Origin: a virus
DNA: 22,212 nt
Direction: 5' to 3' (one strand)
Virus record (IMG/VR): IMGVR_UViG_3300046028_001991
Span: 1 to 22,212 of that record
Positions 1-22,087 of this stretch are shown piece after piece. Position numbers and translations under genes: made by a program. The notes under the pieces were generated by a model. That model worked only from the letters and a program-made list of their open reading frames with translations. It was not told the origin of the DNA and made no database searches. The first letter of the stretch is position 1; each line of letters begins with the position of its first letter.

Positions 1-26
1 TTAACTTGGTCTTCAACCCATCCCAT
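1..26 (-). CDS. 5' end of an unidentified gene, cut by the window edge
   Basis: Only the first eight codons are visible (M-G-W-V-E-D-Q-V). The ATG sits at 26-24 and shares one base with the TAA stop of the preceding gene (TAATG). A good Shine-Dalgarno, AAGGGG, lies 6 bases upstream inside that gene, which is why I accept so short a fragment. After the nozzle and small tail proteins, an internal virion or ejection protein would be the expected next gene in a podovirus-like order, but that is inference from position only. No function can be assigned from eight residues. Confidence 0.55.
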
Positions 27-511
27 TATTCACCCCTTGGTTCACCAGTGGTGATTGAAAAAAGATTGCTTGAGGAATCAAAGTGGGACTTGATGCCCTC
101 AACTTTGTGCTTGCGAAGTGCGAGCTTCAATGCTCGGACAACGTCAGGGGATGTGGTGCAGATCAACACATCAAACCCAATTTTTCTGGCGCACTGGTTG
201 AACTCCATTAAATTCTGAATGTAGTTCTCGGCGGTGTCGCCGTTGTAGCCGCAAACAAAGCCAACGCGGTGAGGCATGGCGGCGATCGTGAACAGCGTAT
301 TGCCAGCCCGGATGCGAATTAGGCGCGGGTCGCTGTACTGCTTGAGCATGATCGAATAGGACATGCGCTCGGCGCTGGTCCCGTGCTTCTTGGCCGCTCC
401 GGCGCACTGCGCAAGGCCCTCCTTGTACTCGTGCGCGGCCACCGCAAAAATGTCGGTTGGCTCAAGCATGTGCTCCTTGGAACTGACTGGGTGAATGCCT
501 GCCATGGTCAT
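26..511 (-). CDS. Unrecognised 161-aa protein, possibly GNAT-like fold
   Basis: I do not recognise the family securely. The start is the ATG at 511, which overlaps the TGA of the gene before it as ATGA; a longer reading from 613 would run deep into that gene. It is a soluble mixed alpha/beta protein with no signal peptide or membrane segment. Two strand-like stretches around residues 68-84 (TLFTIAAM, GFVCGY) are followed by a helix with ENYIQNLMEF, a strand DVLICTT, and a basic helix VVRALKLALRKHKVEG. That order loosely resembles the C-terminal half of a GNAT acetyltransferase, and some podoviruses carry GNAT-like proteins in this part of the genome. I see no convincing acetyl-CoA loop, so this is only a suggestion. 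It sits between the diiron protein and the next, truncated gene. Confidence 0.75.
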   Translation of the reverse strand: MTMAGIHPVSSKEHMLEPTDIFAVAAHEYKEGLAQCAGAAKKHGTSAERMSYSIMLKQYSDPRLIRIRAGNTLFTIAAMPHRVGFVCGYNGDTAENYIQNLMEFNQCARKIGFDVLICTTSPDVVRALKLALRKHKVEGIKSHFDSSSNLFSITTGEPRGE

Positions 512-1191
512 GCGGACACCTCCAGATAGCGTCGATCGTCCACCCGGTTGGGGTGAAAGTTGGGCAAGTAGATCTTGAGCATGGGCACAAATACCTTGGT
601 TGTCATGTGCCACGCCCAGTGCGAAAAGTCAATCCAGTCTTTTGGACGTCGGAAACTGACGCCTTTCAGGGTGTGGCTCACGATGAATTTGATGACGTAG
701 ACCTGATTTTGCCTTGCAATCGTGCGCAAGTCAGCGTCTGAGTAGCCCAAACTGCGCCAAAGGTCGATGGCCAGATCCTTGTGGCCTATCTCTTCGCGAG
801 AATGCCAAGCAAATAAATTGTGGTCTCGGCCAGTGCGATCGCCGTAAAGGTCAAGGTACATGCGACCCATGCAGGCAGCAAAATGCTCAATTGACACCAT
901 GCTGCCCAGCCACAGCTTCGCGCCGGGGCGGCGGTGGATGACTCGGGTCTTTCGGTACTCGCCATTGGCCACCTCAGTGATGCCTGCACGGACGTTGTAG
1001 GCCTCGTGGGCACTGGCGTGAGCCAGCTCTTCGCGGATAAAGTCCTCCACGCGGGCCCGGAGCGCCTCATCCTTGACTTCAGGCAGGTGGTGCTTGGCCA
1101 CAGCCACAAACGCACGCTCCCATGCCGGGAACAAAGTGCTCACAGCATCGCAGTTACGAGTGAAGAATTCTGAGCCACCACACCAGTTCAT
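508..1191 (-). CDS. Ferritin-like diiron protein, PF10118-type 'metal-dependent hydrolase'
   Basis: The 227-aa protein resembles the family named 'predicted metal-dependent hydrolase' (PF10118/COG3687). It has an all-alpha pattern with a complete ferritin-like ligand set: Glu25 (FPAWERAF), an ExxH at Glu55-His58 (EELAHASAH), Glu102 (SIEHFAA), and a second ExxH at Glu134-His137 (REEIGHKDLAID). His62 and Asp143 are extra candidates. In ferritin-like diiron proteins such a set binds two irons and supports oxidase, oxygenase or desaturase chemistry. The substrate here is unknown and the 'hydrolase' name has weak support. No signal peptide or clear membrane span is visible, although residues 165-205 are rich in aromatics. 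It is coupled by ATGA overlaps to both neighbours inside the tail operon, so it should be made late with the structural proteins. It could be a virion component or an auxiliary metabolic gene. Confidence 0.85.
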   Translation of the reverse strand: MNWCGGSEFFTRNCDAVSTLFPAWERAFVAVAKHHLPEVKDEALRARVEDFIREELAHASAHEAYNVRAGITEVANGEYRKTRVIHRRPGAKLWLGSMVSIEHFAACMGRMYLDLYGDRTGRDHNLFAWHSREEIGHKDLAIDLWRSLGYSDADLRTIARQNQVYVIKFIVSHTLKGVSFRRPKDWIDFSHWAWHMTTKVFVPMLKIYLPNFHPNRVDDRRYLEVSA

Positions 1192-1448
1192 GTTGTTTGC
1201 GTCGCGGGGTTAACGGCGGCCATCATGGCCTCAGCCCAACTGAACCAATCCTCGTACTGGTCAGTGCGCGGGGTGGCCTCGTTGGAAAATACGTCAATGG
1301 CGTTCAGGCCATTGCCCCACAACTTCCAGTCGGTCTGGTCATTGGGGATCTCAAGGTTCTGGGCACCGTACAGCTCGCACATGAGCGACGCCCACGAATC
1401 AAACGTGTGATAGCGCGGGTCGTAGATCTGTGCGGGGTTAAGGGCCAT
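1188..1448 (-). CDS. Conserved small phage protein, 86 aa, acidic and Trp-rich
   Basis: The protein begins M-A-L-N-P-A-Q-I-Y-D-P and contains a Trp/Tyr/Asp-rich stretch with HTFDSWASLMCELY near residue 14 and DQYEDWFSWAEAM near the end. I recall similar small proteins (start MALNPA..YDP.YHTFDSWA) between nozzle and internal virion genes in environmental phages, but know no function. The start at 1448 is chosen because it overlaps the upstream nozzle gene by 11 bases; a start at 1508 would lie 70 bases inside it. The gene ends in an ATGA overlap with the diiron gene. It is soluble, with no motif I can tie to activity. A minor tail component is plausible from position. Confidence 0.82.
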   Translation of the reverse strand: MALNPAQIYDPRYHTFDSWASLMCELYGAQNLEIPNDQTDWKLWGNGLNAIDVFSNEATPRTDQYEDWFSWAEAMMAAVNPATQTT

Positions 1449-16400: not shown

Positions 16401-17579
16401 TTAGCACTTCACCGAGCCGCCGCGCTTTTTGGCGGGCGTTACAGTGACCGACTCCTTGGTCTTGGTCACGCTGTCAGCCTTTGGCGCAGAGGAGAACAGG
16501 TCTTTGGCCACGTTCTTGACTTTGCTGAAGACCTTACCGGGGAAGCCACGGATCGACCGTGCCATCTCCATGTCACCCTCGTCGGGCCCAATTGCCTTGT
16601 CGTATGCGCCCTTGGACAGGTCGACATCGCCGCCCTCCTTGAGCTTCATCTTGCTGGCCGGGCCATACTTCAGGTTCGTGTCCATTTTGGCGGCACGGAA
16701 CGCTGGAGCATTTTCAGAGGCGGACATTTTCAAGAGGCGACCTTCAGCAGGAGTTACCTTGCCACCCTTTTTGTACGTTCCCGAGAGTTCGTTGATGCGT
16801 ACAGGCTTGGAGGCTGGCTTGCTGCCTTGGGGCATCGCGACGGGACGACCTGAATCAACAGTTCCCCCCGCCGCGTAGGCTTTTTTTGGGGCACCACCTT
16901 TTTTGTAGCCGCCGCCGTTTGCCTTCGCCACGCCACCAGTTGCATAGCCACCGCCGTTGCCGTCCTTCACGCCGCCAGTTTTGGCAGGTGAACGGTCAGG
17001 CTTGGCCGTGTCCATCTTGGTGTTGCGGTAGATGCCGCCTTGGTCTTCGGTGTTGATGATGCCGCCTTTGGCGTAACCACCTTGGCCGTCTACCACGCCG
17101 CCGGTCTTCAGGCCTTTGTGGCCCTTGGACGCAGGTTTGCCGGAATGAGACTTCAGCTCAGACTTCACGCCTTTGATGGCCTTCATCTCGGCCATGTGCT
17201 CGGCTTTGGACTCGCCGCCTTCAGCCTTGCCGCCCTTTTTCATGGCGGGGGCAGTCATTGCGGGAGGTGGAGTCATTGGAGGCTGCATCCGAGCGCCAGC
17301 GCCAACTGGACCGGCAGGGCCAGCACCAGCGGGCATACCGCGCATTGCACGACGACGCATGGCCAGCGAAGGGGCCATAGGGGCCGCCGCGCCGGGTGCG
17401 CCGCCACGAGCAGGCATTCCGCGAGGAGGCATACCAGCGGGCATACCGCCAGCAGCGCTCATAGGAGAGCCCATCATGCCGCCGTCAGCCTTCTTGGCTA
17501 CCTTGCCACCCTTTTTGAGCTTCAGCTCAACGGATGGCTCGGTGGTCATCATCTTGACCATTGGTTGAAATTGACCCAT
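16401..17579 (-). CDS. Repetitive Gly/Lys/Met-rich KGG-motif protein, 392 aa
   Basis: This is a low-complexity, very basic protein. Residues 21-34 start with LKKGGKVAKKADGG. Residues 35-112 are a Met/Pro/Gly/Ala tract (GGMPAGMPPRGMPARGGAPG). Short KKGG/KTGG/YKKGG units then recur through residues 114-275, with an imperfect repeat KTGGV-x-DG-x-GG-YA-x-GG at 158-173 and 200-217. The C-terminal 120 residues are more ordered (TPAEGRLLKMSASENAPAFR, FSKVKNVAKDLFSSAPK) and end KKRGGSVKC. Proteins with scattered KKGG units are common among environmental phages and have no known role; binding of DNA or of the capsid interior is a guess based on charge. The start has a strong AAAAGGAG. Two poly-A runs in Lys codons (16881-16887 and 16899-16904 on the plus strand as T) could favour ribosome or polymerase slippage. 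Confidence 0.85.
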   Translation of the reverse strand: MGQFQPMVKMMTTEPSVELKLKKGGKVAKKADGGMMGSPMSAAGGMPAGMPPRGMPARGGAPGAAAPMAPSLAMRRRAMRGMPAGAGPAGPVGAGARMQPPMTPPPAMTAPAMKKGGKAEGGESKAEHMAEMKAIKGVKSELKSHSGKPASKGHKGLKTGGVVDGQGGYAKGGIINTEDQGGIYRNTKMDTAKPDRSPAKTGGVKDGNGGGYATGGVAKANGGGYKKGGAPKKAYAAGGTVDSGRPVAMPQGSKPASKPVRINELSGTYKKGGKVTPAEGRLLKMSASENAPAFRAAKMDTNLKYGPASKMKLKEGGDVDLSKGAYDKAIGPDEGDMEMARSIRGFPGKVFSKVKNVAKDLFSSAPKADSVTKTKESVTVTPAKKRGGSVKC

Positions 17580-18638: not shown

Positions 18639-19553
18639 TTACACGCCGGGTGTACCGTACATTGCACGCGGATCAGTGAATCCGGGGATGTAACGCTCTG
18701 TGGCCTTGTAGCGCATGGAGTCGGTCTCGAAATCGCCTTCCATGGTCTTTTCCAGCTTGCGACGCATCAAGAGCTTCATGCCCTCGGGAGCGTCGGTCTG
18801 AACCCACCAAGCGGTCGAGCTGGTCAGACGCGAGATCACAGCGGCACCTTCGTCCAGCAAGCCGATGGACTTGACGGGGTTGATGTCGTTGTTTGCGCCG
18901 CCGGAGCGGAGAACCGACTTCAGCAAAACTTCAGCTTGGAAGACGTTGCCCGGAGCCACGACGATTTGACGTGGGACCAAACGAATCTTCTTGCCGTTGT
19001 TGTCAACAGCTTGGCGGACCTGAATCAGCATCTGTTCCAGAGAGGTCTGGCTCAGGTTGGCAGCGGTAGCCAACTGATTGCTGAAAGTACCGTTCGCGAT
19101 TGGGTGAGCGGTGTTGATCAGAGACACGCCGTCGCCGCCGGGGTAGCTGGCGTTGAAGGCACGGTTCATGATGTTCGCGCACAGAGTCTCTTTGGTCTCG
19201 ATGAGAGACTGAGCCAAGTGACGAGCATAGACCTGACCGATACGGATGTGGTCGCCGTCTTCAACCAACACTTTGGTCAACGCGAAGGCCAAGCCATACA
19301 CGTTGTACACATAGCGTTGCAAGAAGAGCACACCACCCTGTTGGTACGTCACCGGAGTGCCGTCAGGCAACTGAGGTGCCGCGCCAAAGCCGTACAAGAC
19401 GGGCTCTTCGTGGTAGTTACGTGGAATACCGTCTTGCTCGCGGAAAACGCGAGACCATTCGTCGGTACGTTGATCATAGACTCCGTCGAAACACTCGTTG
19501 AGAATAGGCTCAACGATCGAACGGAAGTCCGTACTGCGCATTGGTGCTGCCAT
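18639..19553 (-). CDS. Major capsid protein, HK97-fold, Mu gpT-like, 304 aa
   Basis: The length and layout fit an HK97-type capsid subunit without a long delta domain. There is an N-terminal helix (DFRSIVEPILNECFDGVYDQ), an E-loop-like region (REQDGIPRNYHEEPVLYGFG, TPVTYQQGGVLF), a spine-helix-like stretch (ARHLAQSLIETKETLCANIM), then the P-domain motif GGDGVSLINTAHPIANG, LSQTSLEQMLIQVRQAVDNN, and PRQIVVAPGN. The A-domain-like end contains STAWWVQTDAPEG and FETDSMRYKATERY. GDG-x-x-LI-x-x-x-HP is shared with Mu-like gpT major head proteins. It follows the co-chaperonin, scaffold and decoration genes as expected. The start has AGGAGCAATAAC, and an intrinsic terminator follows its stop, consistent with very high expression. 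I see no obvious N-terminal propeptide. Confidence 0.9.
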   Translation of the reverse strand: MAAPMRSTDFRSIVEPILNECFDGVYDQRTDEWSRVFREQDGIPRNYHEEPVLYGFGAAPQLPDGTPVTYQQGGVLFLQRYVYNVYGLAFALTKVLVEDGDHIRIGQVYARHLAQSLIETKETLCANIMNRAFNASYPGGDGVSLINTAHPIANGTFSNQLATAANLSQTSLEQMLIQVRQAVDNNGKKIRLVPRQIVVAPGNVFQAEVLLKSVLRSGGANNDINPVKSIGLLDEGAAVISRLTSSTAWWVQTDAPEGMKLLMRRKLEKTMEGDFETDSMRYKATERYIPGFTDPRAMYGTPGV

Positions 19554-20708: not shown

Positions 20709-21656
20709 TTAGCTCCTTTTGTTGCGTGCTTCAATAGCGTATCGTTTGATCATCTTGTTCCGCTTTTCGGCGTCGTCCCAAAAGCCAGCGTCCTTCATTG
20801 CCCGGACCTGTTCAGGTTCCAAAACAAATTGGTTGCCGCTTCCGCGACTGGATGATTCACGACTCGATCCTGTAACAACACTTCGGGGGCTCCTTCTGGA
20901 GGTCTCGTCAGTGTTTCTAGTATAACGGTGGGGCAATCGCTTTTGCAAGCGGTTGTCAAGCTCATCCCAATAATCTTGAGATGCGGGGTCCCACCCTTCT
21001 GCAACCAGACGGTTGTCGATCACCTTGGCGATCTGTGTGTCCTCGTCCCCAGCCTCTGGGTCGTACCACGAGTTCTTCTCCATCCAGCTATTGGCCAGAC
21101 GCACCAGCTTCGGATTGGCAGGCGCTGACTCTGTCGAGCTGGCGCGGGCTGCCTGTTCCTTGTAGCTGTGCATGGCTTCCAGCTTGCGGCGGCTGTCGTA
21201 CCACAGCTCTTGGGCCTTGGTGAAGGCCGCGCCGTCGGAGTTGTCTGTCGCTTCCTGCATCTTCTGCTGGGCGTAGCGCAGGCGGTACTCCTCGTCTTCC
21301 ATGGCCTTTTCGTAGCGGGCCAGATCTGCGCCGTGGGTCTTGCGCTCCACGACTGACAGTCGCTCCATCAACTCCTGATTCTGACGCTGCAACAGGCCAA
21401 GGCGCTGGTCCTTCTCCTCGTTGGTGCGCTTGATGTATTCCTTCTTGGCTTTGCGGCGGTTGCGCCGGGCCTCGCGGACTGCATCGGAGTCGTCTGGGTG
21501 GTCAACATCGCCGTCGTTGTCCTGATGGGAACTTGGCTCATCGCCGCCGTCTTCGTCGCTGTCAGCCATGTGGCCGGGCAGATCGACAGTGACGGAGCCG
21601 TCCTTTTCCTCAACGACGCTGATGTTTTCGTTTGTGTCTTTGGCTTCAACGCTCAT
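20709..21656 (-). CDS. Capsid scaffolding protein (putative), 315 aa
   Basis: The layout is that of a phage scaffold: an acidic, disordered N-terminus (residues about 30-60, Asp/Glu-rich, for example ADSDEDGGDEPSSHQ), a basic patch (EARRNRRKAKKEYIKR), a long helical coiled-coil region (about 75-175, with RLGLLQRQNQELMERLSVVE and DEEYRLRYAQQKMQEATDN), and a helical C-terminal domain (SWMEKNSWYDPEAGDEDTQI, then DYWDELDNRLQKRLPHRY). The basic C-terminal end (RNKMIKRYAIEARNKRS) could contact the capsid protein. It is coupled to the co-chaperonin gene by an ATGA overlap and lies upstream of the capsid gene, the standard place. I see no protease domain. The assignment is from architecture and position rather than a catalytic motif. 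Confidence 0.85.
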   Translation of the reverse strand: MSVEAKDTNENISVVEEKDGSVTVDLPGHMADSDEDGGDEPSSHQDNDGDVDHPDDSDAVREARRNRRKAKKEYIKRTNEEKDQRLGLLQRQNQELMERLSVVERKTHGADLARYEKAMEDEEYRLRYAQQKMQEATDNSDGAAFTKAQELWYDSRRKLEAMHSYKEQAARASSTESAPANPKLVRLANSWMEKNSWYDPEAGDEDTQIAKVIDNRLVAEGWDPASQDYWDELDNRLQKRLPHRYTRNTDETSRRSPRSVVTGSSRESSSRGSGNQFVLEPEQVRAMKDAGFWDDAEKRNKMIKRYAIEARNKRS

Positions 21657-22087
21657 AGGAATGCCCTCATAGCAAGTGGATCACCGGTCAGCTTCGCAAT
21701 CACTTCGTGATCGTTCAGGACCATAAACAAGGCGGATTCTTCGTTCGCGTCTTCACCGGGAACGTGGATCTCCCAACGGTCACCGCCCCACTTGGGGACG
21801 CGGATAAAGTCGCCCACGTCAGCCCAGCTACCTTCAGGCCATGAGGCCATCGTGTCGCGGTGCTTATACGCCAGCGGACCAATCTCAATGACCTTGGCCA
21901 CCATGTTTTGCCACTTTTCGGTTTCCTTGGTCTCTTCGACCAAGATAATTCCAGATGCAGTTGTTGCCTTTTTTGTTCGGCGGAGCTGTACCAAAATACG
22001 CCCACCAAGAGGTTTTGCACCGGGATCTACGCTCGGAAATGCCCAAGCCATCTCAGCTTCGTTAGAAGCTACCGGGTTATTACTCAT
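21653..22087 (-). CDS. GroES-like co-chaperonin, 144 aa
   Basis: The Cpn10 fold is recognisable: PLGGRILVQLRR at residues 26-37, the mobile loop KKATTASGIILVEETKETEK (39-58) with Ile47-Ile48-Leu49 in the place of the GroEL-binding Ile-Val-Leu, then MVAKVIEIGP, VGDFIRVPKWGGDRWE, and the final strand NDHEVIAKL. It should cap the host GroEL and adapt it to a phage substrate, as T4 gp31 does for its capsid protein; the nearby capsid gene makes that substrate likely here. At 144 aa it is longer than bacterial GroES (about 97) and T4 gp31 (111), owing to an N-terminal extension, a roof-like insert near 72-88 (HRDTMASWPEGSW) and a tail after 132. It overlaps the preceding gene by 8 bases and the scaffold by ATGA. 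Confidence 0.9.
   Translation of the reverse strand: MSNNPVASNEAEMAWAFPSVDPGAKPLGGRILVQLRRTKKATTASGIILVEETKETEKWQNMVAKVIEIGPLAYKHRDTMASWPEGSWADVGDFIRVPKWGGDRWEIHVPGEDANEESALFMVLNDHEVIAKLTGDPLAMRAFL

Follow-up and report, generated by a model that had tools for sequence, protein, structure and literature searches.

Cyanobacterial aldehyde-deformylating oxygenase (ADO) carries two EX28-29EX2H motifs, with Glu32, Glu60, His63, Glu115, Glu144 and His147 supplied from four helices (PMC4286721). Phages were already known to carry acpP and fabF as auxiliary genes: these have been read as auxiliary metabolic genes in Rhodobacteraceae prophages (excerpts of PMC8224337), as has an acyl carrier protein (ACP) in Alteromonas phage R22Y (excerpts of PMC11705849). 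These fatty-acid-type phage genes resemble the ACP and ketosynthase (KAS) pair that we found as the alternative occupant of the slot described here, whereas PF10118 and the nozzle/GNAT slot are unreported in the excerpts of these two papers. A literature search on the function of PF10118/COG3687 returned a passing mention of PF10118 as a lanthipeptide-correlated candidate, and otherwise nothing. The Caulobacter phages GB2A, KcrB, RW, RLK and MW202545 have their gene order in common with the present locus (nozzle identity 45% and 51.5%), but the slot is empty in GB2A and KcrB and holds ACP and KAS in MW202545.

The sample was a virus record of 22 212 bases (IMGVR_UViG_3300046028_001991; the window, i.e. 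the whole stretch of DNA analysed) with its tail-region genes, and an M15-type endolysin gene, on the minus strand (Table 1). The usual order in nearly all carriers is adaptor, fibre, nozzle, a small gene (79-106 amino acids), PF10118, a GNAT-fold gene and a very large ejection-type protein. These carriers are a lineage of short-tailed environmental phages of roughly 51-57 kb with SU10-type adaptor genes. At the place matching the window's GroES-like gene, MW202545 has a gene annotated as chaperonin 10 kd.

Table 1. Features of the window, with the evidence for each.
Feature	Position	Strand	Evidence or remark
GNAT-fold protein, 161 aa, 3' border of the slot	26..511	(-)	AlphaFold and Foldseek
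PF10118 (Metal_hydrol) ferritin-like diiron-type protein (probable), 227 aa, ATG start	508..1191	(-)	Pfam, ligand invariance, AlphaFold, dN/dS
Small gene after the nozzle gene, 86 aa (MALNPAQIY...), 5' border of the slot	1188..1448	(-)	in nearly all nozzle loci
Nozzle-like virion structural protein, 737 aa	1438..3651	(-)	phrog_3287 virion structural protein, E=7.3e-26
Tail-fibre-like protein, 498 aa	3651..5147	(-)	phrog_12796 tail fiber protein, E=7.4e-6
SU10-type tail adaptor, 211 aa	5144..5779	(-)	PF24175, E=5.5e-23; phrog_2941, E=5.5e-29
Lys/Gly-rich repetitive protein, 392 aa, in the structural block	16401..17579	(-)	KKGGK/ADGG stretches repeated; no Pfam match
Capsid protein	18639..19553	(-)	
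GroES-like co-chaperonin, near the capsid genes	21653..22087	(-)	PF00166 Cpn10, E=6.5e-7

The PF10118 protein and its proposed ligand set

The 227-aa protein matched PF10118 with E=4.4e-36 (125.3 bits against the Pfam cut-off of 33.2), in an alignment spanning profile positions 16-247 of 247, i.e. most of the profile is covered and the curated cut-off exceeded. This match, and the presence of E25, E55, H58, E102, E134 and H137 in the spacing E25-x29-E55xxH58 and E102-x31-E134xxH137, bear out a sequence-only reading that had proposed a PF10118-like protein with a full E/ExxH/E/ExxH set. Loss of these residues in close phage homologues, which would have spoken against that proposal, was looked for, and no variation was found across 32 viral rows with identity down to 36%; the six were likewise identical in 40/40 cellular PF10118 rows. 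A loose form of the pattern (E-x(24-34)-ExxH ... E-x(24-36)-ExxH) recurs in 0.8% of composition shuffles (167/20000), so it is not the motif by itself but the HMM match and the invariance that are conclusive.

H62 and H130 are as invariant as the six proposed ligands and E133 nearly so, these residues and the ligands being conserved in 32/32 or 31/32 viral rows and in 40/40 cellular rows. The residues invariant beyond the ligands in both viral and cellular rows (S18, P22, H62, W129, H130 and E133) suggest a substrate pocket. Between viral copies dN/dS was 0.03-0.12, indicating strong purifying selection on the protein. A search with PADLOC for a defence or anti-defence role gave no match.

An AlphaFold model built on the 32 rows (mean pLDDT 94.7) places the ligands on four long successive helices (8-38, 42-69, 92-116 and 122-136), with H137 just beyond the fourth. 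The model is consistent with a ferritin-like E/ExxH/E/ExxH arrangement over four helices, and from the helices and the invariance we infer that the six ligands converge on a dimetal site. Foldseek listed PaaA/PaaC, ADO, R2lox, RNR R2, MMOH and COQ7 but also TenA and heme oxygenase; as its top matches were a mixture of diiron and TenA/heme-oxygenase folds, none of those in the PDB at E<=0.001, the ferritin-like assignment from this source is suggestive. The cyanobacterial ADO resembles the viral protein in having two EX~28-31EX2H motifs on four helices (Foldseek TM-score 0.51-0.56), whereas the Foldseek E of about 1 is non-significant and no sequence homology between them is detectable. Sequence searches detected no match of the PF10118 protein to any PDB chain, neither Pfam nor the PDB gave a ferritin or rubrerythrin match, and a rubredoxin domain is absent. 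Weak matches in BFVD included a phage rubrerythrin-domain protein (A0A218M313) and no close structure. The protein is probably redox-active and of the diiron type.

The slot, its borders and its alternative occupants

The small gene and the PF10118 gene share a 4-base ATGA overlap at 1188-1191 (stop of the former, start of the latter), and a second ATGA overlap at 508-511 joins the PF10118 stop to the GNAT-fold gene; PF10118 was joined to the next gene in this way in 17/22 loci checked. The earlier description of a gene fused by ATGA overlaps to tail genes on both sides is thus correct as to both overlaps, but the downstream partner is a GNAT-fold protein by its model and no demonstrated tail gene. 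That model has a pLDDT of 91.9, and its leading Foldseek matches in the PDB are without exception GNAT acetyltransferases, with a best E of 5.3e-4. The canonical acetyl-CoA motif Q/RxxGxG/A is not visible in this protein, which makes acyltransferase activity doubtful. The GNAT-fold gene is conserved before the giant ejection-type gene and follows PF10118 in 13/13 nozzle loci that have PF10118 (L196/L172 with a divergent form), while the protein had no PHROG match above chance and no match among GenBank phages. It may resemble T7 gp13. On the other border, almost all relatives have a member of the small-gene cluster after the nozzle-like gene, but conservation does not extend to a longer GTG start at 1508. 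The small gene was considered as an acyl carrier protein and rejected, its 18 aligned rows having no conserved serine motif and Pfam no match.

The nozzle-like protein has 401 relatives in IMG/VR, and we surveyed the slot at the 63 nozzle-anchored loci with enough downstream sequence, the window included. PF10118 occurred in 13 of these, the GNAT-fold gene alone in 19, neither in 26 and another arrangement in five. The gene is therefore missing from 50/63 loci, whereas a virion structural protein would be expected to be conserved among relatives sharing the tail. In L130, with a nozzle 92% identical to that of the window, the GNAT-fold gene starts directly at a bare ATGA junction without PF10118 (...CAAACAACATGAG... 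against ...CAAACAACATGAAC... in the window), and the exact empty ATGA site is found in L130, L138 and L142. Such presence and absence among close relatives with intact flanks is expected of an auxiliary (cargo) gene. On the nozzle tree we counted nine changes of PF10118 state, at least eight of them forced by supported branches, a count that recombination of the nozzle gene could inflate. Anchoring on the GNAT-fold gene instead (60 loci) placed PF10118 immediately upstream in 27, a ketosynthase in five and neither in 28. In cultured Caulobacter phages (GB2A and KcrB) both cargoes and the GNAT gene are missing, and the small gene leads directly into the ejection-type gene.

In MW202545 and L124-L128 the place of PF10118 is taken by an acyl carrier protein and a FabF-like ketosynthase. 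The DS(L/M)D motif of the ACP is conserved, and its profile matches in the PDB are almost all ACPs (best E=0.008); the ketosynthase retains its Cys-His-His residues and matches FabF structures at 3e-21. Relatives of this ketosynthase were found on 555 viral contigs. All of the best 80 carried the ACP with the ketosynthase in this slot and none carried PF10118; 79 had the small gene and 77 the GNAT-fold gene, which was adjacent in 76. Conversely, 0/15 PF10118-carrying records had the ketosynthase and 0/13 ketosynthase-carrying records had PF10118, tests that are independent of annotation but partly trivial if a single site holds a single cargo. This mutual exclusion is position sharing and not evidence of equivalence. 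A large group of phages (L284-L363 and MW202545, L074:33643-35021) has the ACP and FabF-like ketosynthase pair in its tail-to-ejection slot, an observation in its own right; in MW202545 the ketosynthase is annotated too short, its frame being open upstream of the annotated start.

The empty sites, the ACP-ketosynthase replacement and the 13/63 count contradict the view that the gene is locked into a late structural operon. Since close relatives lack PF10118 or have the ACP-ketosynthase pair there, we regard it as optional metabolic cargo and not as a part of the tail.

Distribution of the viral form

The viral PF10118 form was counted, across searches, in about 60 IMG/VR contigs. The sampled viral rows form a single clade (support 100/100), set apart from 40 cellular rows by a branch of length 1.32 changes per site; the tree program issued a warning that long branches meet. 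A recent bacterial donor was rejected in view of this single deep clade of the sampled viral rows and its long branch. Homology between the viral form and cellular PF10118 proteins, such as those of Burkholderiales-type genomes, extends along almost the entire profile, but the viral form is shorter (about 216-236 amino acids against about 270-330 in most cellular proteins), and it has W24, M98, S100 and A105 where the cellular proteins have G, T, A and T.

PHROGs does not contain the viral family, and tblastn found no convincing member among GenBank phages; it is consequently missed by current annotation. The sole tblastn matches were 10 contigs labelled Acinetobacter phage MD-2021a, which we read as probable host contigs and rejected as phage relatives; these records (CAKLQF/CAKLQH) reach 254 kb, contain cellular-type genes and are probably host sequence. 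Cellular-type PF10118 genes were also present in 21 further IMG/VR contigs (L263-L283), possibly as independent captures or host contamination. The single match in genome_contigs was a contig of a Limnohabitans MAG with both a phage nozzle gene and a viral-clade PF10118 protein, and hence a phage contig; its binning is a weak indication of the host.

Possible roles of the cargo enzyme

We read the PF10118 gene as an optional cargo (auxiliary) enzyme of this phage lineage, catalytically intact and possibly acting in an acyl or lipid direction, and give this reading as a whole a probability of about 0.6. Our confidence is high that it is an enzyme and optional cargo, while our estimate for an acyl substrate is near even. 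The metal centre would be a ferritin-like dimetal site, diiron or Mn/Fe, that could activate O2, and the activated O2 would oxidize a small substrate, possibly an acyl or lipid compound, in the infected cell. The protein would be made late, the gene being translationally coupled to tail and ejection genes through the ATGA overlaps. The lipid direction is a possible one with two leads, namely ACP and KAS as the alternative cargo and the neighbourhood of one cellular PF10118 locus (L220), where a TetR regulator, a 4HBT thioesterase, an SDR and ETF-QO are encoded; the other cellular neighbourhoods examined held regulators and no clear lipid genes. That its basis is slot sharing and one cellular neighbourhood counts against the acyl link. 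A more far-reaching proposal, which we consider unlikely, is that the nozzle-linked/GNAT-fold junction serves specifically for the exchange of acyl-chain enzymes (a diiron PF10118 oxidase in some phages, an ACP-ketosynthase pair in hundreds of others), both feeding a late acyl modification, whether of a lipid of the host or of a protein of the virion or ejection apparatus, with the help of the adjacent GNAT-fold protein.

The sequence-only reading had offered three roles, a virion-delivered oxidase, an oxygen/iron-handling factor or an auxiliary metabolic gene acting on lipids, and the last of these is the best supported. Packaging beside the ejection proteins and injection at the start of infection, with action in the periplasm or on the membrane, is unlikely, if the most credible of the rivals. 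Nearly all loci do have the gene flanked by the nozzle-linked gene on one side and by the GNAT-fold and giant ejection-type genes on the other, and the ejection proteins of podophages are internal components of the virion (PMC8954989). This position, however, also fits plain late expression, and close relatives do without PF10118 in assembling the same tail region. Redox enzymes, moreover, usually need host reductants, which are harder to supply outside the cytoplasm. It is very improbable that the protein is a structural or morphogenetic tail part retaining an enzyme fold: the strict position and ATGA coupling would suit such a role, but the gene is absent from most nozzle-anchored relatives and from the cultured Caulobacter phages, and the invariance of all six ligands goes beyond what a purely structural role requires.

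Two further explanations concern the chemistry. A ferritin- or rubrerythrin-like protein that stores or detoxifies iron, peroxide or O2 and transforms no organic substrate would share the superfamily type of ligand set, and A0A218M313 is among the weak BFVD matches; we nevertheless think this quite unlikely, since ferritin and rubrerythrin sequence matches (Pfam, PDB) and a rubredoxin domain are lacking, as is other specific support, and the additional invariant residues suggest a substrate pocket. Less likely again is a non-redox dimetal hydrolase. The family name in Pfam, 'Predicted metal-dependent hydrolase', speaks for this and, in a family with no assigned chemistry, against our preferred reading; yet the name is itself a prediction, and a helical bundle with two ExxH motifs matches the diiron-carboxylate pattern rather than any common type of hydrolase site.

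Although PF10118 occurs widely in bacteria, its chemistry is unassigned, and the compact, strongly selected viral form offers a tractable route to its substrate. The locus also indicates that late virion operons can accommodate metabolic genes that replace one another at a single, precise junction of four bases. With an ACP-ketosynthase pair and a probable diiron-type enzyme as the alternatives, the lipid change that these phages may need becomes testable.
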